From Bacteroidales bacterium (GTDB lineage Bacteria; Bacteroidota; Bacteroidia; Bacteroidales; GCA-2711565), in the NCBI GenBank assembly GCA_028280405.1, contig JANQLW010000012.1, positions 1-64,000 of the forward strand: a stretch of DNA of 64,000 nt, in the 5' to 3' direction. A model generated the notes under the pieces. The model was not told the DNA's origin and searched no databases. It saw only the letters and a list, made by a program, of their open reading frames with translations. The first letter of the stretch is position 1; the number at the start of each line of letters is the position of its first letter. The position numbers and the translations under genes were made by a program. Below, in pieces: positions 5,680 to 28,370 of the stretch.

Positions 5680-5943
5680 TTAAAAAGGATGCCCCCTTGC
5701 AGGGATTAAGCTAATGATTTTCATTTGTCCTTTTTTACAGTAAGGACATTTGTTTACATCAAAGCCTGTGGTTTTAAGTAATAACTTTTGCCATGTTTGA
5801 GCATCAAGTTTACCAAAACGCTCGGTACCACGCCTCTTAAACACAGCACCTTTTGGTGGTTTGATGCCCTTTCCTGTAAAACGACACCAGTGTTCATCCA
5901 TCTGCTCTCTGGCAGATGTCACCATCTTAATTACAGCATGCAA
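5680..5943 (-). pseudogene. IS91-like transposase, C-terminal remnant
   Basis: Only about 87 codons survive. They end in WQKLLLKTTGFDVNKCPYCK followed by KGQMKII, which resembles the C-terminal tail of IS91-family (Y2, rolling-circle) transposases with its CPxC pair. The catalytic N-terminal parts are missing. A short hairpin (TGCCGA...TCGGCA, about 5957-5980) just to the right could be an element end. It abuts a truncated attC-like sequence at 5983, so insertion or deletion here broke the cassette array. Confidence 0.62.
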
Positions 5944-6097: not shown

Positions 6098-6943
6098 TTA
6101 TTTATACCAACGTGATGTATCAACATCATAATCCTCAACCTCATAATTGACATCAGGAAAATCATCTGATATCTCATATCTAATCTTTGTTTCAAAAGGA
6201 AAGCTTTCTTTAATATCTAGGCCATCTCCTTCTCGTCTATCTTTTCGTGAGCCATATTCAAGTATAACATAAAGATTTCCACTGACAGTAACAATAATCT
6301 CTTCATCATTAATCTCAGAAATATTGTATTCGCTAACTTCACTATCTTTAAGTGAATAATGTGGAGCTAAACTATCTAGATTTTCGAAGTAGGAGGAAAT
6401 TATGGAGTAAACCATATGATCTTCAATATGCCCATCCAAAAAAGATTTAAGCTTTTCTCTATAGATTTCAATAGTTTCAACAAATTTTAAAAATGTATTA
6501 AGTACTTTGGTGCTGTTTTTATCAACATCATCCTTATTAAGGTCAAATATTTCAGGATTTATATGTGTGAATTTACTTAATGTGTTAATTGAATCAATAA
6601 TTGAGCTTATAGTATTATTTAAATTTAAAACATTAAATCCAAGTTTTCTTAGAGTGTCATCACATATTCCTCCTTGGATAGCATATTTAATTTTTTGTCT
6701 TCTTGTTGGTTTATTATTTTGCGTTTCTGGTTTATACCAATTACAATTCAAAATACTTTGTTCTGGCGAAAGTGATTTGAGAAAATGTCTTGATAACTCT
6801 CTTATACTAAAAGCAAAATTATTATATCTAAGTTTATTTGAAGTGTCATAAAGACTTTTTAAAGAAGCTTCAAACAAATCGTTTTCAAATTGAGTAGATA
6901 ATATTGTTCTTATTTTATCAATGTTGTTCATGTGATTTGACAT
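6098..6943 (-). CDS. Cassette gene resembling pPIWI-associated nuclease
   Basis: A 281-residue soluble protein. I choose the ATG at 6943, 6 bp after the R' box GTTAGCG of site E; a longer open frame extends to 7120 but reads through the recombination site. The central part contains FAFSIRELSRHFLKSLSPEQ, a W, then TRRQKIKYAIQGG. To my memory this matches the pattern (RELxRH...LxP...W...TRRQR..YAIQGG) of the predicted pPIWI-associating nuclease domain. The C-terminus is acidic. The gene directly follows the Argonaute/SIR2 operon, but as a separate cassette. Domain identity is from memory and should be tested by profile search. Confidence 0.55.
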   Translation of the reverse strand: MSNHMNNIDKIRTILSTQFENDLFEASLKSLYDTSNKLRYNNFAFSIRELSRHFLKSLSPEQSILNCNWYKPETQNNKPTRRQKIKYAIQGGICDDTLRKLGFNVLNLNNTISSIIDSINTLSKFTHINPEIFDLNKDDVDKNSTKVLNTFLKFVETIEIYREKLKSFLDGHIEDHMVYSIISSYFENLDSLAPHYSLKDSEVSEYNISEINDEEIIVTVSGNLYVILEYGSRKDRREGDGLDIKESFPFETKIRYEISDDFPDVNYEVEDYDVDTSRWYK

Positions 6944-6948
6944 ATTAC

Positions 6949-7077
6949 CGCTAACGGTTTTGTGTATGAAGCGTGGGGCATTTTTTAAAATTTCTCTTTC
7001 TCTGTGGGTAGGGACTTGGAAGCTCTTTTGCAGGTTTTGGTCGTGTGGTGGCATTGTGTGACCTGCAAATGTGCTTA
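6949..7077 (-). other. attC-like cassette recombination site E
   Basis: The minus-strand R' GTTAGCG (6949-6955) is clear. The far end (AAGCACATTT, about 7068-7077) matches only the first part of the expected R'' for the hsd cassette (AAGCACAAC). Inner arms GCACATTTGCAGGT and ACCTGCAAAAGAGC are inverted copies. A sequence alike over about 55 bp lies upstream of hsdR at 15231-15287. Confidence 0.55.
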
Positions 7078-7091
7078 TAAGTATGCGATGG

Positions 7092-8162
7092 CTATAAAAC
7101 TTCCTCATCTTCATTATCATTTGGAAAAAGATTTAGTAATTTTTCAGTTGTTAATTCATTTTCAAAAAACTCCTTTGCTTTTGTTTTCTGAATTTCAATT
7201 TGGTTTTCCTCAACTTTTAATAAATCTATTACTTCCTTTTTAATTGTTGTCAATTTCCTGCCGTCAAATGTAGCAACAAGTAATTTTGAAGTTTCATCTT
7301 GTTTTAAAGCCTGAGAAATCAATCCATTTATATGTTCATCTGAAAAACTATATCCAACACAAATAATCAATTTGGCTCTCAAAGTATGAAATCTGAAAGC
7401 TGAAAAAAGATATAAATAAGGGTCTGCAAATTGAAGTTTGTTTTGTGTTCCAAAAATCAAATCTGGTTTTGATGGTGTTCCATCAATGCAACTAACAACC
7501 TTAGTTTCTTCGTCTCTTTCCCAATCAATTGAACCGTGTAATTTGTATAAATAAATATCAGGTTCTGTATCGGGTGAAACTTCATCAAATCGTTTGTAAT
7601 TCCATAACCGGTTTGTTTCTTCTTCCTCAAAACCCCTTTCAATTGAAAATTCAAACCCTCTTCTATTACAGTTTTCTTCTATGCAACGGTCATAGTTTAA
7701 TGTAAAAACTCTAAGAGGAAAAGTTAGCTCATCTTTTAAACGTTTATAGTTTTTAAAATAATCTGCATTTCTGTAGTCTCTTGGGATAACCCACCTTTGT
7801 AGTTTCTGTTTAATTTCATTTTGGAAATCTTTTATTAATTCAAAATCATCTTTGATGACTTCATTAAATTTAACATTCCATGAACCGATAAACGGGTAAA
7901 GCAAATGGTTTTCTTTTTGTATTAATTCTTCTAAAACAAATAATAATATTTCGATATTGAAATTGTTGGTTTTACCAGATAAACCTGCTGAATATTGAAC
8001 TCCACTTTTTATTAAATAATATAAGTCCTTATACTTTTTCCATTCACTATTATTTATGGAAGTCTCAATTTCATCAACCATTTTTTTCGAAACGGGAATA
8101 CCTGCATCTGCACTGGCACCTGCACCCAATAAAAAAATTATGTCATTATCTCTAAAATTCAT
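7092..8162 (-). CDS. SIR2-like (predicted NADase) effector, last gene of the hsd-pAgo operon
   Basis: A 356-residue protein with an N-terminal SIR2-type NAD-binding fold: FLLGAGASADAGIPVS at about 10-25, FTLNYDRCIEENC at about 153, LYKLHGSIDW with the catalytic-type His at about 208, and ICVGYSFSDEHIN at about 267. In defence systems such domains consume NAD+ to stop phage growth. The start lies 12 bp after the stop of the Argonaute gene, so cotranslation is likely. An inactive pAgo next to a SIR2 protein matches the logic of known short-pAgo and long-B pAgo systems, where the pAgo senses nucleic acid and triggers NAD+ depletion. There is no APAZ domain that I can see. Confidence 0.85.
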   Translation of the reverse strand: MNFRDNDIIFLLGAGASADAGIPVSKKMVDEIETSINNSEWKKYKDLYYLIKSGVQYSAGLSGKTNNFNIEILLFVLEELIQKENHLLYPFIGSWNVKFNEVIKDDFELIKDFQNEIKQKLQRWVIPRDYRNADYFKNYKRLKDELTFPLRVFTLNYDRCIEENCNRRGFEFSIERGFEEEETNRLWNYKRFDEVSPDTEPDIYLYKLHGSIDWERDEETKVVSCIDGTPSKPDLIFGTQNKLQFADPYLYLFSAFRFHTLRAKLIICVGYSFSDEHINGLISQALKQDETSKLLVATFDGRKLTTIKKEVIDLLKVEENQIEIQKTKAKEFFENELTTEKLLNLFPNDNEDEEVL

Positions 8163-8174
8163 AATTAACTCTTT

Positions 8175-10037
8175 TTATAAAAACCAAGGCTTTTCAGTAT
8201 CCTTTGTAATTAGGTTCAAATTCAATTCCTTAAAATGCTTACTAAAATCGGCTATTAGTTTTGGATAAAATGATGAAACAGGCAAAGACTTAGCATTAAA
8301 TCCACGATAATTTGCACCTGAGAGGTTTAGAATATCTTGCAAATAAGCTTTATTATTTTTAAAGCTATCAGCTTGATTGCTGTAATGAAAATCTATATGA
8401 AGTGGATTTCCGTAACTTTTAATAGCTTTAGAATTATGAAAGTTTAATCCTTCTGTCCATAATAAATATTGCATATCACTAATTTGAACATATGAACTTT
8501 CAAAAGGAACCAATGAGTTCTTTCCTAAATTAAACCCAATAAAATCTGATTTGTCATTAATCTTGATGATGGATAATTCAACATCATTGCCAGCTTCTGA
8601 TAAAATCTGTTCAATGGTTTTTATCTCGTCTTTGTTCAATTTCTGAGGAATATGAAATATAATTTTTTTATAACTATCGTTTTCTTGAAGAATTTCAGAG
8701 ATACTATTTGTAATAGCTTCTATAAATTTTGATTTAACGGTTTCGTCTGCTAATTGCTTAATGGAAATGAATTTACCTGATGAATCAATTAATACTGAAT
8801 ACGAAAAGAAACGTTCATATCTTTTTTCCTCTCTATTGTATTTATGAGACTGACCAATACCCACAATTAAGCAGTTTTTGTGACTTGGTTCTACAATCCA
8901 GGGAACTCCACCAAGTTTTGAAAATATTTGAATAGCTATATTACTGACAGACCATTTTATAGTATTAGGATTTCTAATAGTTTCGGTATGTACAGTTTGT
9001 ACAGGAATGTTTTCCTGTAAGCACTGATGCTTCAATTGATAATAAAATTCTTCTTCTTTTTCGGGAGTAACCGAGATAACAATAGGATTATTTTGCTCGC
9101 TTGTTTTCACATCTTCTAAAACCCTTTTTATTTCTTGTAATGAAAAATCGGTTAAAATAATCCCCTTTGTATTCACTTTACTTTGTTTAGATAGGTATAG
9201 TTTGTCCAAGCCTTTAAAGGTGAAAAAAGAACCGTTCAATGCTTTCACTAATTCCTGAGCAAAACTTTTATGCTCTTTCTTATACAGATAAAAATAAAAC
9301 GGCTGTTTTGAAACTTCTTCAATAGGACCATGTTGCATTACCCCATTAAATTGAGAATTGGCTGTTTTATTTCCATTAAAAATATAAGTTTTCGGTTTTA
9401 AGGTATCAGCCTTAACTTTTTGTAACTGTTTTGATATTGATAATTCCTGAGAAATAGTTTGAATAGCAGAAATATACTTTTGAATAAATGATGATATGAT
9501 TTCGTATCTGTCTATATTGAAATTTTTATTTTCTCTATAACTTACATCTAAACTTAAAGAGTATTTCTGTACTTCCCGATTAAATGGATAGTCTTTGTTT
9601 TGCAAAAATTTATAATCCAGTAAAAAGCCGAACTGTTTAGTTTCTTTTAGATAATAAGGCTCAATCCAAACTGTTTTTTTGCCGATAACTGTACTGTCTG
9701 CTGATTTTATAGTTTGTAAATAAACATAAGTACGATTTCTATTTATCTTACTGTGTTTTTCGGTAGTTTTTATTTCTGTTTGTTTAAGTTTTTCCTTTAA
9801 AAGAAAATGCAAATAGCGATTAACCAAGCCCAAAGGTACATTTAACGAATTGACTTCTGCCCGTTCCGCTTGCTCAAAATCTGAGAACGATACCCAATAT
9901 TGCTCATCATCAATCCAAAATTTTCTAATATCGTCACTCCACAGTTTTTCTTCCGTAAGTGCTTGTTTTCGATAAATCTCAAAATTGAAATTTGAAGTAT
10001 TAAGCGGTAAAAAATTTAATGTAATATCATATTTCAT
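8175..10037 (-). CDS. Argonaute/PIWI-domain protein (pAgo), apparently nuclease-dead
   Basis: A 620-residue protein. The N-terminal half (1-270) is probably N/linker/PAZ-like but diverged. A MID-like region spans about 280-380, then a PIWI region starts at LGGVPWIVEP (about 375) and LIVGIGQSHK (about 387). In active PIWI domains the first catalytic Asp follows VGI; here it is Gly (GIG). The second catalytic position, normally near RDG, reads IIFHIPQKLNKDE. Guide-directed cleavage is therefore unlikely. The gene overlaps hsdS by 4 nt (10034-10037) and precedes the SIR2 gene by 12 bp, making a single transcriptional unit with the type I R-M genes. Assignment rests on the GG-PW...VGI signature and size. 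Confidence 0.75.
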   Translation of the reverse strand: MKYDITLNFLPLNTSNFNFEIYRKQALTEEKLWSDDIRKFWIDDEQYWVSFSDFEQAERAEVNSLNVPLGLVNRYLHFLLKEKLKQTEIKTTEKHSKINRNRTYVYLQTIKSADSTVIGKKTVWIEPYYLKETKQFGFLLDYKFLQNKDYPFNREVQKYSLSLDVSYRENKNFNIDRYEIISSFIQKYISAIQTISQELSISKQLQKVKADTLKPKTYIFNGNKTANSQFNGVMQHGPIEEVSKQPFYFYLYKKEHKSFAQELVKALNGSFFTFKGLDKLYLSKQSKVNTKGIILTDFSLQEIKRVLEDVKTSEQNNPIVISVTPEKEEEFYYQLKHQCLQENIPVQTVHTETIRNPNTIKWSVSNIAIQIFSKLGGVPWIVEPSHKNCLIVGIGQSHKYNREEKRYERFFSYSVLIDSSGKFISIKQLADETVKSKFIEAITNSISEILQENDSYKKIIFHIPQKLNKDEIKTIEQILSEAGNDVELSIIKINDKSDFIGFNLGKNSLVPFESSYVQISDMQYLLWTEGLNFHNSKAIKSYGNPLHIDFHYSNQADSFKNNKAYLQDILNLSGANYRGFNAKSLPVSSFYPKLIADFSKHFKELNLNLITKDTEKPWFL

Positions 10038-11350
10038 AATACTTCCTCTTTAATGGTTATTTCCTTAGGCTTCAGAGCCTCCCTTAAAACCTGACTTAAA
10101 AGCATTTCGTTTTGTACTTGGCTGTTTTTTATACTCACTTCCAAACTATCGCAATATGCCATTAACTCATCTAATTTGGCTACTATGCGTTGCTGTTCGG
10201 AAAGAGGAGGCAGAGGTAAAAGAGTATTCTCAAATTGAACATTTGTAATACTGGGTGAATTAAAGCCAACCATCATTTCCTCAAATTTTTTATTTAGGTC
10301 AGGATTTAACAAGAAATAAAAGATATATTTTGTGTTTACTGAAATTGGTTTAAAAACATTAAATCCTGTCGTACCAATCATTTGAGGTAGTTCTTCTTCA
10401 ATAATTGCAATATTTCTCAGGTAAGGTCTTACAGTTGAATAAACAATAAAACCTTTCTTTAAAATTCTCCTTGCTCTTGTTGAAAGTTCAGAAACACGAC
10501 TTGTTTTCATTTCTCTAATCAACTGTCTTGAATTGTCTATACAGTCAATATCAACATAGTTTATAATTGTATCTGCTGATAATTTTTTTTGAATGTCTAA
10601 ATTATCAGTATAAAATATTGGAATACCCAGCCTGCACCAAACCCAACTTTCAGGAATTTCAAATGGAATTTCATCTTCTGAAATTGGAGGTAAAGGTTTT
10701 TGTTTCTTGATTTTTTTCTCTTTTATCAATTTGTCTTTTTCGGCTTTTATTTTGGCAAGGAGTTCTGTTGCTGTTTCGTTCGCACCGTTTTGCTTTACCA
10801 GTTTGCCTTGCATGGCTTCACGTAAAAAGGCTTGGCGAAGTTGTTTTACTAAATCAAGCTGATAGAGTATTTCTGCAGATAAAGTGTTATTTGCCGTTTC
10901 CAATTCTTTGTATTCTTCAACAAACTTTCTCTGTTCATCCAAAGGTGGTAAAGGAACTTCAATATTTGCAATTTCTTTCATTGGCAAAGTTACATTTGCC
11001 ATTCCTCGCATACGGCTAACAAGTTCTTTTTCTCTATTTGAGTCAAGAAAACGATATAAAAATTCTGCACTTAAAATATTGCTATCATTTGGAATAACAG
11101 CGCAAAGTATATTACCAACGGCAAATTTACCTGTTTGATAATGAATTCTTTTTAAACTTCTGTGTCCATGACCTGTTGAAGAAACTAAAGGAATGACAAC
11201 TGCATCTCCTTCAAAATGATATTCATTGTGCGATTTTCTTTCTTCGCTGGTAACAACTAAAGGATATTCGCCTGGAATAGCTTTGGTAATTCCAATCTTT
11301 CCTTTTGTAATTGAACTCAAATCGCCTAATTTTCTTTTCTCCCAACTCAT
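10034..11350 (-). CDS. hsdS: Type I restriction enzyme specificity subunit HsdS
   Basis: A 438-residue protein with two target-recognition domains, each followed by a conserved helical repeat. The first ends LPPLDEQRKFVEEY...LRQAFLREAMQGKL (about 135-185) and the second LPPLSEQQRIVAKLDELMAY...LREALKPK (about 380-430). Each TRD reads half of a bipartite DNA target. The start overlaps the hsdM stop by 4 nt and the end overlaps the pAgo start by 4 nt, so all three are translationally coupled. The sequence is full length with no frameshift. Confidence 0.95.
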   Translation of the reverse strand: MSWEKRKLGDLSSITKGKIGITKAIPGEYPLVVTSEERKSHNEYHFEGDAVVIPLVSSTGHGHRSLKRIHYQTGKFAVGNILCAVIPNDSNILSAEFLYRFLDSNREKELVSRMRGMANVTLPMKEIANIEVPLPPLDEQRKFVEEYKELETANNTLSAEILYQLDLVKQLRQAFLREAMQGKLVKQNGANETATELLAKIKAEKDKLIKEKKIKKQKPLPPISEDEIPFEIPESWVWCRLGIPIFYTDNLDIQKKLSADTIINYVDIDCIDNSRQLIREMKTSRVSELSTRARRILKKGFIVYSTVRPYLRNIAIIEEELPQMIGTTGFNVFKPISVNTKYIFYFLLNPDLNKKFEEMMVGFNSPSITNVQFENTLLPLPPLSEQQRIVAKLDELMAYCDSLEVSIKNSQVQNEMLLSQVLREALKPKEITIKEEVL

Positions 11351-16623: not shown

Positions 16624-17829
16624 ATGGATTTCTATTGGACAAAGAATATCGAATTAGTTGATGAGATTTCAAAAATTTATAAGAGTGGTGGTCTAACTCT
16701 AGTACTAGGTGCTGGGGTCTCAAAGGGGTGTGGTTTACCATCATGGCCTGAACTTGTAAAAGACCTTCATACTGAAGTATGTCGAAAGAATTATAATACA
16801 GCAGATGGATTGTATGGCTCTTTTGAAAACCCTAAAGGATGGGGTGGACTCCAAACCGCTCGTAATGGTTTAGAGGCAAAAACACTAAATAACTTACCAT
16901 TACCGATCCAAAGTCGTTTTTGCAAGAGCAAACTTGGTAAAAACTACACTAAGACTCTGCAGAAAACATTATATAAAAACAACTTCACCATATCAAAAAC
17001 TGTTGATTCTATAATTAAGCTTCAATCGCTGAAAGCAATTTGTACATACAATTATGATGATATAATCGAGACGTCAGGAAAAAAAGGACAATTCAGGTCA
17101 ATTCCAAAATCTGAAATTAGTTATAAATCAGGAATCCCTGTTTACCATGTGCATGGAATGTTACCTTCGGATATTTCAAAAAGGCCTAAAGGAGACATAA
17201 TATTCTCTGAAGATGAATATCATGAACTATATTTGAATTTTGGGCATTGGTCAAATATTATACAATTAAGTCTTTTTATAGAAAGTGAAATAGTCCTATT
17301 TATTGGTTTGTCATTTGATGATCCAAATTTACGGAGGCTCCTTGATGGTGCTAAATCTGCAAAAAAGGGACTAAAACTATATAATATTTGCAAACTTCCA
17401 TTTGAAAGGTATTTAAATCATAGTACTAAAACTCCCTTAGATCCAAATGAGGTAGAAGTCTCAGTTTACGATCAAGTTTATAAAAATATTGGAGTTGAGA
17501 ATATTTGGGTCGATGAATATGATCCAGATATATCTATTTTACTTGAAGCCTTCGTTGCTAAAGATTCAATTGAATCTTATACAGATAGTACCAGGAAAAA
17601 TTTGAAGGAGAAACTAAAAGCTATTGGTATTACCACAGAAATATGCCATCTACATGGTTGTAATGATCGCTGTGTTAAAGGATCTCAGTTTTGTATTTTA
17701 CATACCTTAGGAGATAAAGATAGATACATGCCTTTCGCACCAATGCCAAAGACATCAAAAGATATTTGCTCTGTAAAAGGATGTGATAAAATTACTTCTG
17801 GTGTGTCAAACACTTGCAGATACCATTAA
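16624..17829 (+). CDS. SIR2-like protein with two C-terminal Cys/His knuckles (cassette gene)
   Basis: A 401-residue protein. The N-terminal SIR2-type domain shows LVLGAGVSKGCGLPSW (about 26-41), CTYNYDDIIETS (about 140), VYHVHGMLP (about 177) and VLFIGLSFDDPNLRRLL (about 223), consistent with an NAD+-consuming defence effector. After residue 335 are two similar Cys/His clusters, CHLHGCNDRC-x6-C-x2-H and CSVKGCDKI-x7-C-x2-H, which look like paired zinc-binding knuckles of the kind seen in phage and defence proteins. They could bind nucleic acid or a trigger protein. It is the only gene of its cassette and has no partner. Confidence 0.82.
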   Translation: MDFYWTKNIELVDEISKIYKSGGLTLVLGAGVSKGCGLPSWPELVKDLHTEVCRKNYNTADGLYGSFENPKGWGGLQTARNGLEAKTLNNLPLPIQSRFCKSKLGKNYTKTLQKTLYKNNFTISKTVDSIIKLQSLKAICTYNYDDIIETSGKKGQFRSIPKSEISYKSGIPVYHVHGMLPSDISKRPKGDIIFSEDEYHELYLNFGHWSNIIQLSLFIESEIVLFIGLSFDDPNLRRLLDGAKSAKKGLKLYNICKLPFERYLNHSTKTPLDPNEVEVSVYDQVYKNIGVENIWVDEYDPDISILLEAFVAKDSIESYTDSTRKNLKEKLKAIGITTEICHLHGCNDRCVKGSQFCILHTLGDKDRYMPFAPMPKTSKDICSVKGCDKITSGVSNTCRYH

Positions 17830-18033: not shown

Positions 18034-18912
18034 ATGAATGAAACTTCTTGGAGACATCATTATATACCTGAATTCTATCTTGATGGATTTACATCGAGTA
18101 ATGGCATGTTTAAGATTTATGATGTTAAAGCAAAAAGGTTTAAGAAGAATGGAAAAGAATTTTCACCAAGGAGTCAGTTTTTTGAGAAAAATGGTAACAG
18201 TTGGATTTCCGAGGATTTGATTGATGATAAGCAAGAGACAAAATATAGTAAAATTGACAACAGAGTTGCCAAGGTATTCCAACGAATTCATAAATCTAAT
18301 TTTCAAGATAAATTCAATGTAGATAGTGATGATATTGCATTGCTTCAATATTTCGTTGGAGTTATGTATTGGAGAATTCCAACAAACTACTCCGAGATTA
18401 AAGATATTATTCAGAGAAAGGAATTAAAAGAATTAGGACTTGTTCTAAAAAAGATTGACGATTCTTCAAACCTTGATATCAGGGAATTTGAGGAAAGAAT
18501 AAAAAACGATTCTAATTTCTTTAAAATGATGAAATATTGGTTTCCAAATATCTCTTTTCCTGAGATTTTTGATTGTACTACACCTTTACATATTATTCCG
18601 TTCTTTAAGTCTTTTCCTCCCGTTTGTAGTGATAACCCCGTGATTTCAAGAGACCCAGATAGATTTAGAGTGTATAAGGATGATTTTATTTTTCCTTTAA
18701 GTGATACAAGAACTTTTTTTCGAGGGAATAAAATTAAAAAGCTCAACGGTGTTATTAAGATATTAATTGATACTTTAATATATAAACAAGCTCTTGAATT
18801 TGTGAGTTGTACTAATGAGAGATATTTAGAACAATTAGACTCTTTTTATGACAAGAATTTTAGTAATTTAAAGGAACTTAGAGAATTAATTTTTGAACTA
18901 GTATTTGAATAA
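18034..18912 (+). CDS. DUF4238 domain protein (cassette gene)
   Basis: A 292-residue protein beginning NETSWRHHYIPEFYLDGFTS, followed by MFKIYDVK, the hallmark HH-IP-YL-F start of DUF4238 proteins. Their function is unknown; they occur widely in variable regions and defence islands. No membrane segments are seen. Its cassette starts GTTAGGTTGC and its R'' reads GCAACCTAAC, perfectly complementary over ten bases. The gene has no cotranscribed neighbour. Confidence 0.8.
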   Translation: MNETSWRHHYIPEFYLDGFTSSNGMFKIYDVKAKRFKKNGKEFSPRSQFFEKNGNSWISEDLIDDKQETKYSKIDNRVAKVFQRIHKSNFQDKFNVDSDDIALLQYFVGVMYWRIPTNYSEIKDIIQRKELKELGLVLKKIDDSSNLDIREFEERIKNDSNFFKMMKYWFPNISFPEIFDCTTPLHIIPFFKSFPPVCSDNPVISRDPDRFRVYKDDFIFPLSDTRTFFRGNKIKKLNGVIKILIDTLIYKQALEFVSCTNERYLEQLDSFYDKNFSNLKELRELIFELVFE

Positions 18913-22392: not shown

Positions 22393-23667
22393 ATGATATT
22401 AGAACTTAAGATTAAGAATTTTCTATCCTTCAAAAATGAGGTTATTTTTAGTTTTGAAGCCACATCAGATAAGACTTTAGAAGATTATTATGTGACTCAA
22501 ATGGAGGATGGTACTCGCATCTTAAATATGGCTATGGTTTATGGTGCCAATGCATCCGGTAAAAGTAACCTAATTCATGCTTTTGAATTTTTGAATGAAT
22601 TTACTCGTAATTTACATGAAAAGGATGGTATTAATAATATGTTTGTGCCATTTTTATTTGATGAAACCTCAAAGGAACCTGGTGTTTTTGAATTGGTATT
22701 CTATGCTATTGGTAAAAAGCATAAATATCAACTAATTGTTAATAAAAATGTAGTACTTGAAGAAAAACTATTCGTTTATCCGGGAACACAACCTGCAAGT
22801 ATTTTTAATAGGTATTTTAATGCAGAGAAGGAGATATCTGTTGTTGAGTTTGGTCCAAAAATTAAAATATCTGCCCAGGCATTAGAAGCTATTCAGTTAA
22901 AAGCTCTTAAGAATATTTCTGTATTTGATGCGTATAGCCAGGTAAATATTTCTATACCAGAGTTAGAAATAGCAACTAAGTGGTTTGATGATCAGTTTTT
23001 AAGTCCAATCAATCCTTATACTGAACTGACTGAATTTTCTGATGAGGCAATTAAAAATAGTATAGAAACTAAAATGAATGCTTTAAACTTTCTTAAAGAA
23101 GCTGATTTTAATATTACAGATGTTGAATTTGTTGATAAAGTGGAGAAAATACCTAAAGCATTGGTTGAATTTTTTGAAAAGGCACCTATTTCAGAGGAAA
23201 GGAAAGCCCAAATTAAGAAGGAGGGAGCTATTCCTGTTGAAGAAACTTTTTTCACTCATAGAGTCCTTAAGAATAATAATGAGGAATTTCATCCTCTTTC
23301 TGAAAATAGACAGTCTAGAGGGACTATGAGATATTATGGGTTATCAGCTCCGTTTTTTCATGCAATTGAAAATAATGCTTTTTTACCAATTGACGAAATT
23401 GGGTCGGCACTTCATCCTTTATTAGTATTCCATTTTTTGAGGGAGTTTTTACAGAAATCAAATCAGGCTCAATTACTGTTTACGACACATAATATGTCTA
23501 TTCTGAATGAAAAGGATATGTTAAGAAAAGATGCTATTTGGTTTACTGAAAAACAAGAAGATGGTGCAACTGAATTATTTTCTATGGCAGATTTTAATTT
23601 CAGAAAAGAGTTATCGTTTTATAATGCTTACAAAATCGGAAAATTTGGAGGTATACCAGAATTATAA
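22393..23667 (+). CDS. AAA15-type ATPase, RloA/AbiLi-like
   Basis: A 424-residue ABC-like ATPase of the AAA15/RloA type. It starts MILELKIKNFLSFKNEV (a RecF/OLD-like first strand), then Walker A YGANASGKSNLIHAF (about 52). Late motifs are FLPIDEIGSALHPLLV (Walker B with acidic pair and D-loop, about 329) and LLFTTHNMSIL (H-loop, about 360). The following gene starts 2 bp after the stop and encodes an RloB-like TOPRIM protein. The RloAB pair corresponds to the AbiL abortive-infection arrangement. No Cys-rich or coiled-coil insert is obvious. Confidence 0.85.
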   Translation: MILELKIKNFLSFKNEVIFSFEATSDKTLEDYYVTQMEDGTRILNMAMVYGANASGKSNLIHAFEFLNEFTRNLHEKDGINNMFVPFLFDETSKEPGVFELVFYAIGKKHKYQLIVNKNVVLEEKLFVYPGTQPASIFNRYFNAEKEISVVEFGPKIKISAQALEAIQLKALKNISVFDAYSQVNISIPELEIATKWFDDQFLSPINPYTELTEFSDEAIKNSIETKMNALNFLKEADFNITDVEFVDKVEKIPKALVEFFEKAPISEERKAQIKKEGAIPVEETFFTHRVLKNNNEEFHPLSENRQSRGTMRYYGLSAPFFHAIENNAFLPIDEIGSALHPLLVFHFLREFLQKSNQAQLLFTTHNMSILNEKDMLRKDAIWFTEKQEDGATELFSMADFNFRKELSFYNAYKIGKFGGIPEL

Positions 23668-23669
23668 TC

Positions 23670-24278
23670 ATGGGAAGAAAGAGGAATATAAGACGATTTA
23701 ATGTAAAATATGCAGTTCTGGGTGAAGGTATCACAGAACAATGGTATTTGAAACACTTAAAAGCTCTCAATAATTATAAATATACTATTCGTCCTTCATT
23801 ATTCTCAGATGTAGGTATTGAAAAAGCCGAAGATATAATAGATGAGTTGTTAAGTGGAGGTTGCGATCATATAACGTTTTTGACTGATTATGATACTATT
23901 GTGGCACAACGTAAACAAAAGGCATTTAATCGGATTGTAAAAAAATATAGTAATAATGATAATGTACTTATTTGTGATAGCATGCCTAGTATTGAATTAT
24001 GGTTTCTATTGCATTTTAAATATACGACCCAAGAATTTACAAATTGTGAAGAATTATTAGTTGAATTAAAGAAATATTTGCCTGATTATATGAAGAAAAG
24101 AACTTTTTTAGAAAAAGTTTCCTGGTTTAATACTTTGGTTGATAATAAGGGGCAAGAGAAGGCTATAGAAAATGCCAACAAGCTTTTAGAATATGTGGAA
24201 GAAGGTAATATAGGTAAACATTTTCCATTTACTAAAATGCCGTTGGCAATTGAAAAATTTGAAAATCGAAAAAAATAA
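23670..24278 (+). CDS. rloB: RloB-like (AbiLii-type) TOPRIM-family protein
   Basis: A 202-residue protein. It has a basic N-terminus MGRKRNIRRF, then a TOPRIM-like core: AVLGEGITEQWYLKHLKA with the conserved Glu (about 19), and HITFLTDYDTIVAQRK with paired Asp residues (about 75). SIELWFLLHFKY follows, characteristic of RloB proteins. The C-terminal ENANKLLEYV and PFTKMPLAIEKF also fit. It is the predicted nuclease/effector partner of the upstream ATPase and directly coupled to it. The known role of such pairs is abortive phage defence; here this is inferred from architecture. Confidence 0.85.
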   Translation: MGRKRNIRRFNVKYAVLGEGITEQWYLKHLKALNNYKYTIRPSLFSDVGIEKAEDIIDELLSGGCDHITFLTDYDTIVAQRKQKAFNRIVKKYSNNDNVLICDSMPSIELWFLLHFKYTTQEFTNCEELLVELKKYLPDYMKKRTFLEKVSWFNTLVDNKGQEKAIENANKLLEYVEEGNIGKHFPFTKMPLAIEKFENRKK

Positions 24279-24299
24279 TTATAGGTAAAACAAGAACAT

Positions 24300-24388
24300 A
24301 AAAAAAGTCGCCTTTCGCAAGCGACTTGGATTTGGAAAATTTGCTTGGCCGCAATTGAGGCTTACCACCTCAATGAATTTCCAAATGA
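24300..24388 (-). ncRNA. Predicted ~90-nt structured small RNA
   Basis: On the minus strand a promoter at 24394-24422 predicts a start near 24388. The RNA would begin with an extended hairpin: ATTTGGA/TCCAAAT outer stem (24330-24336 with 24380-24386) and CCTCAATT/AATTGAGG-type inner stem (24353-24360 with 24368-24374), separated by an asymmetric internal loop. It would end in a strong terminator, AAGTCGC/GCGACTT (24305-24311 with 24321-24327), followed by seven T. It has no open frame. It lies between rloB and the metallo-beta-lactamase gene and is transcribed against both. I do not recognise the family. Confidence 0.65.
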
Positions 24389-24393
24389 GACTT

Positions 24394-24422
24394 CAAATAT
24401 AGAAAAATAATTTATATCCAAA
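24394..24422 (-). promoter_or_regulatory. Promoter of the predicted small RNA
   Basis: The minus-strand -7 box TATATTTG (24394-24401) matches TAnnTTTG exactly. The -33 box TTTG (24419-24422) lies 17 bp upstream. The resulting start coincides with the first base pairs of the predicted RNA hairpin. Confidence 0.6.
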
Positions 24423-24508
24423 GTCTCTTTCTAGAACAACTGTGAAAGAACCGTTAAGAAAATAATTTTAGCTGTTTATAATGTATTGTTTAATTTATTA
24501 AAAAAGAG

Positions 24509-25651
24509 ATGAGTAATAAACATTTTATAAAGTATTATCCGGTTGACAATGCGGATACATCACTAATAAAGTTAAGTGATAAAGCAACTATACAAGTTGA
24601 TTGTCAAATTAGAGAAGGAGATGAAAACTCTGATGGTGTTAAAATTTATGATGTTAAAAAGGATATTTTAAAGGAATTACAAAAGGATAGTAATGAAAAT
24701 CCATATTTAGATTTGTTTGTTTTATCGCATCCACACAAGGATCATTGTGCAGGGTTTGAAGGTAATTATTATTGTGGCGATCCCGATGATTATTCTGATG
24801 ACAATAGAGATAATGATGAAATCATAATTGGTGAATTGTGGGTTACACAAATGGTTTTTGGAAATCATATTTGCGAGGAAGCAAAGCCAATTAGAAAAGA
24901 AGCTAAAAGAAGGAGAAAACTTTTTGAAGATAATCCTGAGGAAGCTGATAAGCAAGGTAACAGATTGCATATTATTGGTTACAATGATAATGATAAAGTT
25001 GTAGATGGTTTGCATTATATTCCTGGAGAGTCTATAGAAAAAATCAATGGAGAAGAAAATGATTTTGCTTCATTTTTTATCCATGCTCCATTTAAAAGTG
25101 ACTTAATCTCAGGGAAAGCAGATAAGGACCATAATGCAACAAGTATTGTTTTTCAGTTGTCACTCAAAACAGAAATAAATGGAGAAATAAAATCAAAGGC
25201 AATGTTTGGTGGCGATGCTGATCATTATATTTGGGAAAAGATAAAAACTATCTCAGAAAACAATGATAATCAGAAAAAGTTGAAATGGAATTTATTTTTA
25301 GCACCTCATCATTGTTCCTGGTCATTTTTTAATGATAGATCATATGATGACAATAAAGAACCTAAAGATTATTCTTTAGAAATTCTTGATTACGGAGAGA
25401 GTAATGCTCATGTAATAGCATCAAGTATAAAAATTAAGAATGAAAAACCTAATCCACCACATTTTCCTGCAAAAGAGGAGTATGTTAAAAAAGTTGGTAG
25501 TGGGTATTTTAGGAATACTGCTAAAAATAAAAGTGAAAAGGCTCCTAAACCATTAGAGTTTGAAATTTCAGATGGTGGTACGAAATTGAAAAAAGTAGCT
25601 GCTTCTGCTGCTACCGGAGTTATAAATACACCAACTCCTCGTGCTGGTTAG
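24509..25651 (+). CDS. Metallo-beta-lactamase-fold protein of a ubiquitin-like operon
   Basis: A 380-residue protein with a metallo-beta-lactamase (ComEC/Rec2-like) fold. It opens YYPVDNADTSLIKLSDKATI, then shows the metal motif LSHPHKDHCAGF (about 71-82), MFGGDADHY with metal Asp (about 234) and LAPHHCSWS with metal His (about 265). A 60-residue C-terminal tail rich in Lys, Pro and Ala ends TPTPRAG. The stop codon is 1 bp before the ATG of the E2-E1-JAB gene. MBL genes beside E1/E2/JAB genes were noted in comparative surveys of prokaryotic ubiquitin-like systems (Iyer and Aravind). Its substrate is unknown. Confidence 0.8.
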   Translation: MSNKHFIKYYPVDNADTSLIKLSDKATIQVDCQIREGDENSDGVKIYDVKKDILKELQKDSNENPYLDLFVLSHPHKDHCAGFEGNYYCGDPDDYSDDNRDNDEIIIGELWVTQMVFGNHICEEAKPIRKEAKRRRKLFEDNPEEADKQGNRLHIIGYNDNDKVVDGLHYIPGESIEKINGEENDFASFFIHAPFKSDLISGKADKDHNATSIVFQLSLKTEINGEIKSKAMFGGDADHYIWEKIKTISENNDNQKKLKWNLFLAPHHCSWSFFNDRSYDDNKEPKDYSLEILDYGESNAHVIASSIKIKNEKPNPPHFPAKEEYVKKVGSGYFRNTAKNKSEKAPKPLEFEISDGGTKLKKVAASAATGVINTPTPRAG

Positions 25652-25652
25652 A

Positions 25653-27860
25653 ATGAAATATCAATATCCAATTATAAAAGGGGAAACTGTACAGTTTAAA
25701 GAGCTCAAATTGGCAAGAGCAAAAAAAATTGCTCTTGCTACTCTTGAGCATCCATATTGTATAAATGACTCAATTTGTTTTGTTTCCCGTGAAGATGGTG
25801 CAGAAATTATTCTTGTAACTTTTGATAATGAAATACCCGATAGTCCTATAAATGGGATTCAGGTTTTTGAAGATGTTGCAATAATTTGCTATAAAGAAGA
25901 TAAATGTTTCCCAGAAGTATATGCTTTAAGAGATGATTTTAATGGAGGTTTACCACACACAAATGCTCGTCCATTTGAACACCCTGTTAATCTATGTGTT
26001 ACAGAACAGTTGTTCGAAGAAGTAAAACATAAATTTAATGCATTTGAATTTATCGAATTAATTCGAAGATGGTTTTCATTAAGCTCGGAAGGAATACTTC
26101 ATCAAGAAAACCAGCCTCTAGAATCCTTCTTCTACACAAAAGGATATATAATTATACCAGCAAATTCATCTCCCAAAGATTTCAACTTTCTTCGAAAAAT
26201 AGGTAATTCAATGTTGTATTCTTTAAGTAAAGAACCAACAGGGGAATATCCATTTTCTTTGATAAGTTTCAAAGCAGATGCTCAGGTTCATGGTTTTATC
26301 AGGAGAGAACCTGTAAGAATTTCAGATTTGGATGAAGTAGTAAGACTTAAAGAGGTTCCTTTTTCGGAAGCTGTGCTTAAACTCTTTAATGATATACTTA
26401 GTCGGTTTACTGCAAGTGAAGCTTTTTTTAAGTGTAATTTTGCTTTCCACTGTGAAATTCCTGTATTAAGAAATTATAAAGATAAATCTCCTTCAGGTTT
26501 GAAAAATTTATTCTTTCTTACTCAGCAAAGTTATATGGATATTGGGTTAAAGTCAGGATGTATTGGAGAAGCTGAAGGCAATTATAGTATTTTGATCCCA
26601 AGAAAGTTTGATTTGAATATAATAAAAGATACTCCAATCGTATTATTTTCACCATTAATTGATTTTAGTCCTGCATCTGCAGCCCTTTTAAATAATATAA
26701 AACCAAACAATTTGAATTTATTATTAGTTGGAGCAGGTGCATTGGGATCACAGGTTTTAAGTGTTTTTTCTCGATTAGGCTTTGGTAAATGGACGGTTAT
26801 AGATCATGATTTTATGTTACCCCATAATTTAGCAAAACATGCATTGAACAGAAAAGATATTGGATTTAATAAGGCAACAAAAATTTCGGAGGAAGTAAAT
26901 GAATTACTTGGCGAGGAAGTCGTAAAACCAATTGAGAAAAATTTCTTAGAATTAGTGAAAGACAAAGAATTTGATGAAATAATAGCTAAGCCAGAAGTTA
27001 TAATTGATATGTCAACATCAATTGCTGTTGCCAGAAAAATATCTAGAGATATTGATAAGGAATCTGATAAACCCAGAATATCAGCATTTTTAAACCCGAT
27101 AGGAACTGATTTGGTAGTTCTTGCTGAGGATGAAAAAAGAACACATCGTTTAGATTTTCTGGAAATGCAATATTACAGATGTATCTTCAATGAAAAAAAA
27201 CTACATGACCATCTAAGAATTAATGATTCTGATAAAATCCGATATAACCGAAATAGTTGCCGTGATATAACGAATAAGATAAATCAAACGGATGTTGCCA
27301 TTCATGCATCAATTTGTGCAAAGTCGTTAAAAAAGATAATTGAAGAAGGGAATTCTTACTTATCTATTTGGAGTGTTAATAATGATACACATGAGGTTAA
27401 TCATTTTTCTTTTGAACCATCAAAGTGGATAGTAAAGAAGTTGGATAATTGGGAGATTTGTATAGATGAATGGTTGGTTCAAAAAATGATAGCTTATAGG
27501 TCAAAAAAGTTACCAAAAGAAACAGGTGGTATATTGATAGGTTCAATTGATACAGAAAGGAATATACTATATCTTATTGATACAATTATTGCTCCTGCTG
27601 ATAGCGTCGAAAATAGTACTAGCTTTGTACGGGGAACACAAGGATTGCTTGAAGAATACAATTTATATCAGGAGGTAACAGATAGTCAAGTAAATTATTT
27701 AGGAGAATGGCATTCACATCCTCAAGGTTGCTCAATAAATCCAAGTAAATTAGATAATGTATTATTTCACTATTTATCGGAGCAACTAGAACACCAAGGA
27801 CTACCAGTAGTTATGTGTATAATAGGAGATAATGGTTTCAGTTTAATTTTCAAAACTTAG
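25653..27860 (+). CDS. E2-E1-JAB triple-domain ubiquitin-like conjugation/deconjugation protein
   Basis: I start at the ATG at 25653, 1 bp after the preceding stop (735 residues); a GTG at 25641 in the same frame is less likely. An E2-like domain is suggested by FEHPVNLCVTEQL, whose Cys (about 116) sits in the NLC context of E2 active sites. The E1/ThiF domain shows LLLVGAGALGSQVLSVFSRL (about 356) and NSCRDITN as a candidate catalytic Cys. The JAB/JAMM domain has PKETGGILIG (Glu about 622) and GEWHSHPQGCSINPSKLD (His, His, Ser, Asp, about 684-700), with one residue more than usual in the loop. One chain could thus adenylate, transfer and remove a ubiquitin-like modifier. Confidence 0.82.
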   Translation: MKYQYPIIKGETVQFKELKLARAKKIALATLEHPYCINDSICFVSREDGAEIILVTFDNEIPDSPINGIQVFEDVAIICYKEDKCFPEVYALRDDFNGGLPHTNARPFEHPVNLCVTEQLFEEVKHKFNAFEFIELIRRWFSLSSEGILHQENQPLESFFYTKGYIIIPANSSPKDFNFLRKIGNSMLYSLSKEPTGEYPFSLISFKADAQVHGFIRREPVRISDLDEVVRLKEVPFSEAVLKLFNDILSRFTASEAFFKCNFAFHCEIPVLRNYKDKSPSGLKNLFFLTQQSYMDIGLKSGCIGEAEGNYSILIPRKFDLNIIKDTPIVLFSPLIDFSPASAALLNNIKPNNLNLLLVGAGALGSQVLSVFSRLGFGKWTVIDHDFMLPHNLAKHALNRKDIGFNKATKISEEVNELLGEEVVKPIEKNFLELVKDKEFDEIIAKPEVIIDMSTSIAVARKISRDIDKESDKPRISAFLNPIGTDLVVLAEDEKRTHRLDFLEMQYYRCIFNEKKLHDHLRINDSDKIRYNRNSCRDITNKINQTDVAIHASICAKSLKKIIEEGNSYLSIWSVNNDTHEVNHFSFEPSKWIVKKLDNWEICIDEWLVQKMIAYRSKKLPKETGGILIGSIDTERNILYLIDTIIAPADSVENSTSFVRGTQGLLEEYNLYQEVTDSQVNYLGEWHSHPQGCSINPSKLDNVLFHYLSEQLEHQGLPVVMCIIGDNGFSLIFKT

Positions 27861-27863
27861 CTT

Positions 27864-28370
27864 ATGAAAGAAATTATTGATAAAATCTCATCTTACAATC
27901 TCTTTAACTATTTGTTTCCAGGGATACTATTTGTTGTATTATTGAAAGAGGTTACATATCTCAATTTAATACAACAAAATATCATTGAGGGCATATTCCT
28001 ATATTATTTTATTGGGTTAATAATTAGTCGGTTGGGGTCAATTATTATTGAGCCTTTCTTGAAGTATCTCTCATTCGTAAAATATAAAAGTTATAAGGAT
28101 TATTTAAAAGCTATTGAAATTAATAAAGAATTAAAGTTGTATGTTGAAATTAATAATATGTTTCGTACACTTTGTGCATTATTTTTTCTTTTGGGCACGA
28201 TAATCCTTCTTGATTGGATTGGTGTAAAAATTGATTTTACAAACAAATTAGTAAGATTATCAATCATTATTTCTCTTTTGGGATTGCTATTGTTCTCATA
28301 TAGAAAACATACAAAATTTATTTTCAAGAGAATAGAAGCTATTTTAACTAGTTCAAAAAAAGAAAGTTAA
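27864..28370 (+). CDS. Multi-pass membrane protein of the ubiquitin-like operon
   Basis: A 168-residue protein with membrane segments near 15-30, 40-58, 100-125 and 130-148 and a basic C-terminus. It opens KISSYNLFNYLFPGILFVVL and then YYFIGLIISRLGSIIIEPFL. It starts 3 bp after the E2-E1-JAB stop, so it belongs to that operon and may be the membrane effector or target. A similar PG...Y-IG layout is present in the cassette protein 4055-4531. No CD-NTase (cGAS-like) gene is in the operon, so it is not an ordinary CBASS locus. Confidence 0.7.
   Translation: MKEIIDKISSYNLFNYLFPGILFVVLLKEVTYLNLIQQNIIEGIFLYYFIGLIISRLGSIIIEPFLKYLSFVKYKSYKDYLKAIEINKELKLYVEINNMFRTLCALFFLLGTIILLDWIGVKIDFTNKLVRLSIIISLLGLLLFSYRKHTKFIFKRIEAILTSSKKES

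Follow-up and report, generated by a model that had tools for sequence, protein, structure and literature searches.

A conserved, structured small RNA predicted beside exchangeable defence cargo in Bacteroidota islands

Rna0, the 88-nt antisense RNA that controls EcoRI (Mruk et al. 2011, reviewed in PMC3874152), lies within the restriction gene and opposite the methylase promoter. SymR of E. coli, a small reverse-strand RNA at restriction-modification-associated loci, overlaps the start of the SymE toxin mRNA (PMC1891008). In E. coli DarTG2 is embedded between hsdS and hsdR, together with its own repressor (PMC12255303). A phage RNA activates a staphylococcal CBASS cyclase (PMC10686824). The regulators that we found described for keeping toxic immune systems of defence islands silent before infection are DNA-binding proteins.

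We analysed a 64,000-nt stretch of a Bacteroidales contig (the window), in which an initial annotation had proposed a structured RNA between two defence operons. Like Rna0, the predicted RNA is about 90 nt long and lies on the reverse strand inside a defence gene array, and it would likewise control co-directional expression. In contrast to Rna0, it is intergenic, structured and conserved, and it occurs with several kinds of cargo. It resembles SymR as a small reverse-strand RNA at such loci, but no gene lies opposite to it. As in the RptR-controlled hsd/DarTG2 island, defence cargo is embedded between hsdS and hsdR and would have a control of its own; there, however, control is exerted by a DNA-binding repressor, and the terms 'small RNA' and 'non-coding' are absent from PMC12255303. 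The staphylococcal case also ties a structured RNA to CBASS function, but that RNA is phage-derived, whereas this one is host-encoded and adjoins a CD-NTase at one of six loci. No earlier description of such an RNA was found in the open-licence literature. Judged by its sequence, it represents a new family within a general kind already known, the small regulatory RNA, in an unusual arrangement.

Sequence, fold and homologue comparison place the predicted RNA on the minus strand at 24298..24388 (~90 nt including the terminator). From 24401 to 24298 the order on this strand is TATATTTG, AAGTCTC, a 59-nt body, a linker, a terminator and a T-run, with the body at 24388-24330 and the terminator stem at 24327-24305. 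The TAnnTTTG promoter of the initial annotation is present as TATATTTG (24394..24401, minus strand), a Bacteroidota -7 element that reads TA[TC]ATTTG in all six copies of the RNA described below. A -33-like TTTG lies 17 nt upstream of it (24419..24422, minus strand) in the window copy alone and is not conserved elsewhere. The TAnnTTTG motif occurs 87 times in the AT-rich window versus 102 times expected by chance; with a strong terminator 50-140 nt downstream it occurs at just two places in the 64 kb. The strong terminator was also found as claimed, as a 9-bp stem followed by a T-run (24298..24327, minus strand); it is near-identical in all copies and is the sole terminator detected within the surrounding 2 kb. 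The promoter spacing makes a start at the first paired base plausible. An imperfect inverted repeat at 24384..24430, with halves AAAGAGACTTTGGATATA and TATATTTGAAGTCTCATT, is centred on the RNA promoter and is possibly an operator; it was not seen in the other copies. The cargo leaders of other loci contain different inverted repeats, CCTCT-N13-AGAGG at L013 and L014 and GCTGACC-N8-GGTCAGC at L125 (L numbers denote loci).

The body and terminator together have a folding energy of -30.9 kcal/mol, which no dinucleotide shuffle out of 200 matched (z -4.35). The 'long bulged hairpin' that had been proposed is thus a stable fold, but its shape is better described as a three-way junction. In this fold, all on the minus strand, P1 (9 bp) joins AUUUGGAAA (24378..24386) to UUUCCAAAU (24330..24338), and P2 (7-8 bp) joins AUUGAGG (24368..24374) to CCUCAAU (24354..24360) beneath the apical loop L2, UGGUAAG (24361..24367); the arms of both stems were assigned from fold and covariation. 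P3, a weak hairpin modelled as UGC-GGCCAA-GCA (24342..24353), is uncertain, and only its two G-C pairs are seen again elsewhere.

An alignment pairing the adjacent MBL protein with one relative was used to scan genome contigs for homologues of the locus. The three closest MBL relatives (L013, L030 and L014; 68-69% identical) bear the same RNA at the same position, and it is absent beside 47%-identical relatives (L015-L025 and L027) and beside L026 and L012. A covariance model built on three RNA sequences was then used for wider genome searches. It detected a second copy, L122, in the genome of L030, and a diverged copy, L125 (53 bits, E 1.9e-7), among 393 genomes of the order. Further searches of the class, the phylum and the carriers' families or orders gave no additional copies. 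The RNA is therefore known from six loci in five genomes out of ~1,900 searched (the searches overlap), five of these loci lying in four other Bacteroidota genomes. It is rare; the window genome has a single copy, and the five other genomes of the genus have none. Phage and plasmid collections and IMG/VR gave only chance-level matches. In Rfam release 15 no match reached the gathering score, and the best sub-threshold matches of a lenient search were at chance level; this result and the covariation described below agree with the initial claim of an unknown structured RNA. With regard to the check that had been suggested, a covariance search beside rloAB or E2-E1-JAB genes, copies occur at E2-E1-JAB loci and also at hsdS with a STING CBASS. 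The MBL/E2-E1-JAB/PDC-M48A operon of the window (24509-28370) is itself rare, with E2-E1-JAB present in 2 of 393 genomes of the order; in a distinct 47% clade in Bacteroidales the operon has in addition a second MBL gene and a membrane or patatin-like gene.

Covariation was examined in an alignment of the six copies, which comprise five distinct sequences, three of them close relatives. Standard pairs fill 98.8% of the pair cells. Both sides have changed in five of the 16 base pairs, which are spread over P1 and P2, so that the compensatory changes whose absence was to count against the RNA are present. This level of covariation was matched by one of 500 shuffles, and slid-structure controls gave 0-2 such pairs. 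The loop UGGUAAG is constant across the six copies while the stems covary. Two positions form G-U pairs on the minus strand that would be C-A mismatches on the plus strand; these pairs, together with the promoter and the terminator, fix the strand of the RNA. In comparisons of the window with L013, L030 and L014 the RNA block shows 83-88% identity, against 66-70% for the neighbouring coding DNA, and the -7 element and terminator are kept across copies. From these comparisons we consider it very likely that the element is a conserved, transcribed and structured RNA. Two loop contacts were also examined. L2 (UGG) could kiss the P3 loop (CCA) in four of the six copies but not in L013 and L030; L2 could pair with the terminator loop (CUUAC) in L013, L030, L122 and L125, with a wobble in the window, and this pairing is broken in L014. 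Neither contact was established.

In the window the flanks are as first annotated, with RloA/RloB (AbiL) on one side and MBL, E2-E1-JAB and TM proteins on the other. All of these genes are on the plus strand: rloA, encoding an AbiLi-type AAA ATPase of the upstream operon (22393..23667), and rloB (23670..24278), which is convergent with the RNA, then an MBL-fold protein as the first cargo gene, divergent from the RNA (24509..25651), an E2-E1-JAB fusion with Prok-E2_A, ThiF and Prok-JAB domains (25641..27860) and a membrane protein, PDC-M48A, the probable effector (27864..28370); no hsdR follows the cargo. At L013 and L030 the RNA is preceded by hsdM and hsdS, and the same three cargo genes are followed by hsdR. 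At L014 it follows brxL, and the contig ends after MBL and E2-E1-JAB. L122 has a WYL-domain gene, hsdM and hsdS upstream and DUF2188, CD-NTase, TM-STING and then hsdR downstream, and L125 has hsdM and hsdS upstream and MBL, E2, TM, RloA and RloB genes before hsdR. The upstream neighbour is thus rloB, hsdS or brxL, and the cargo is MBL/E2-E1-JAB/TM at four loci, MBL/E2/TM at one and a CD-NTase/TM-STING CBASS at one. At all six loci two defence genes run in the same direction, and the RNA occupies the gap between them on the other strand, its promoter pointing away from the cargo. Wherever the end of the cargo is readable, a membrane protein (PDC-M48A or TM-STING) is among its products, and no protein is common to the six loci.

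L030 and L122, the two loci that share one genome, match at ~90% identity over hsdM, the hsdS end, the RNA and the leader. Their cargo then differs, and the likeness returns (93%) 58 bases before hsdR. The RNA and leader thus stay fixed while the cargo behind them is exchanged. The RNA and cargo of L014 and of the window do not lie next to hsdS. Because the neighbours change while the position and orientation of the RNA stay constant, the RNA is, on the evidence of these gene orders, an element of a swappable platform for defence cargo, often at an hsdS-hsdR insertion site. The L122 cargo (8854-10943) is an operon that likewise follows the RNA and sits between hsdS and hsdR, and its DUF2188 protein (PDC-S16) may be part of this CBASS variant. 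A WYL-domain regulator, likely a BrxR/CapW-type repressor of the islands, is encoded directly upstream of hsdM at L013 (1693-2700) and L122 (4531-5538).

Three known classes of RNA do not fit this arrangement. A riboswitch or 5' leader is excluded by the next gene on either side, which is on the opposite strand at all six loci. A type I toxin-antitoxin RNA such as SymR or Sok would be antisense to the 5' or 3' part of a toxin mRNA; opposite this RNA the short plus-strand ORF MNFQMRLQI is lost in L125, and no conserved frame exists there. A type III, ToxI-like RNA is contradicted by the lack of tandem repeats at the element and by a strand opposite to that of the neighbours. Frames through the RNA itself are short or unconserved among homologues, in agreement with the initial annotation, so a small ORF was rejected, as was a repeat or mobile element, given the single copy in the window genome and the lack of tandem repeats. 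A cis-antisense RNA of the Rna0 kind would need a complementary transcript of neighbouring genes; this RNA is complementary to any hypothetical transcript that reads through from the upstream gene into the cargo, and an overlap with such an mRNA is possible. A trans-acting small RNA would need an exposed seed complementary to the translation starts of its targets; the UGGUAAG loop is exposed in the fold, and the island genes show no enrichment of its complement.

We believe that the RNA probably controls the adjoining immune genes. It is not the leader of a same-strand gene, overlaps no toxin gene and is not tied to one protein; a regulatory role for the cargo platform fits best. Our main reading, to which we give a probability of roughly 40%, is that it limits or insulates expression of the cargo, the simplest version being an antisense action on read-through mRNA. 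The RNA would then belong to an expression platform that has received different defence cargo operons. A transcript running from the upstream defence gene (hsdS, rloB or brxL) into the cargo would contain a perfect 90-nt complement of the RNA; such a transcript is the simplest target that every locus could offer. In the hairpin of the complement the loop would read CUUACCA, in which CUUA matches the YUNR motif of U-turns; in every copy tested the plus strand folds so that this loop is open. Contact between the loops UGGUAAG and CUUACCA would initiate pairing, after which the read-through message would be cleaved or blocked. As a result, expression of the cargo, and of hsdR where present, would depend solely on the controlled promoter that belongs to the cargo. 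The constant loop suggests that there may be a second partner in trans as well, either protein or RNA.

This antisense reading agrees with a single orientation at six loci in five genomes, across three upstream neighbours and three kinds of cargo, with covariation and with conservation above that of adjacent coding DNA. It is also consistent with the shared hsdM, hsdS end, RNA and leader of L030 and L122, where the cargo differs before a common hsdR. It has precedents in the EcoRI antisense RNA, in DarTG2 between hsdS and hsdR, and in YUNR loops, which speed sense-antisense pairing (PMC6562991). However, the RNA overlaps no ribosome-binding site, its predicted start being ~120 nt from the cargo start codon; the window cargo is not followed by hsdR; read-through transcription is itself hypothetical; and just five distinct RNA sequences are known. 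The initial annotation had suggested a regulator of either operon. A regulatory role is indeed the most likely one, but the comparison does not support a role specific to rloAB or the ubiquitin-like operon. A broader version, which we regard as speculative and rather unlikely, is that this new RNA family acts as a common control part within a modular immune platform, with ubiquitin-like conjugation or a STING CBASS behind one RNA-plus-leader, usually at hsdS-hsdR, and that it couples or uncouples restriction and a second-line suicide system during infection. An RNA that stays put while the adjoining immune cargo is swapped would be an RNA control layer common to unrelated systems. It would also serve as a sequence marker for locating exchange sites in Bacteroidota islands, where kinds of cargo beyond those at the six loci may exist.

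A plain cis-antisense RNA needs no fixed loop sequence. The constancy of UGGUAAG therefore makes a trans partner, RNA or protein, the main rival, which we consider possible but on balance unlikely. The loop would pair with unlinked mRNAs or bind a host protein, and the islands would carry the RNA to tune host physiology or a shared regulator. A loop that is constant while its stems covary is typical of a recognised loop, and the RNA is a free-standing unit with its own promoter and terminator. However, it always adjoins defence cargo, it is single-copy in the window genome, and the genome with two copies has each at an hsd locus. In a search that covered island genes, complements of UGGUAAG were not enriched at cargo, hsd or rlo translation starts and stayed at background. 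A recurrent loop match near the starts of membrane-protein genes was likewise not above background in an energy test.

It is improbable that the RNA works within the defence itself, either as an antitoxin that restrains a toxic membrane effector or nuclease or as a sensor that signals infection. The membrane protein in every fully readable cargo would suit such a role, and CBASS regulated by RNA does exist (PMC10686824). An RNA sensor or antitoxin for one system, as initially suggested, is nevertheless unlikely because the RNA adjoins different cargo (L122, L125) and related MBL/E2-E1-JAB operons do without it. Neither ToxI-type repeats nor an overlap with a toxin gene were found, and the six loci have no protein in common. 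An obligatory role in the MBL/E2-E1-JAB system was rejected, since 14 related operons (L012 and L015-L027) have no RNA.

It is more improbable still that the element acts at the DNA level, as a recombination or insertion site for cargo exchange whose RNA features are incidental. The cargo does change abruptly right after the RNA and leader, and the element is at the boundary in all loci. However, the compensatory changes keep pairing in the transcribed strand, G-U pairs included, the promoter and terminator are among the best-conserved parts, the element is not a genomic repeat, and homology runs on into the cargo in four loci. Least probable of all is a by-product of a divergent promoter, in which the hairpin and terminator only stop antisense transcription into the upstream gene; at every locus the terminator does end transcription ahead of that gene, but a terminator alone needs no conserved three-way junction and constant loop upstream of it.

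Three other features of the window were noted. A block on the minus strand at 6098-11350, directly downstream of a type I hsdS, encodes a class II pAgo, a SIR2 protein (Aga) and a pPIWI-associated nuclease, and is another cargo behind hsdS, here without the RNA. A Group II intron D1D4-2 match lies at 5784-5902 on the minus strand, with no reverse transcriptase among nearby ORFs of at least 120 aa. A SIR2-like protein resembling ThsA, with a cysteine-rich C-terminal region, is encoded at 16624-17829, near a DUF4238 protein at 18034-18912.
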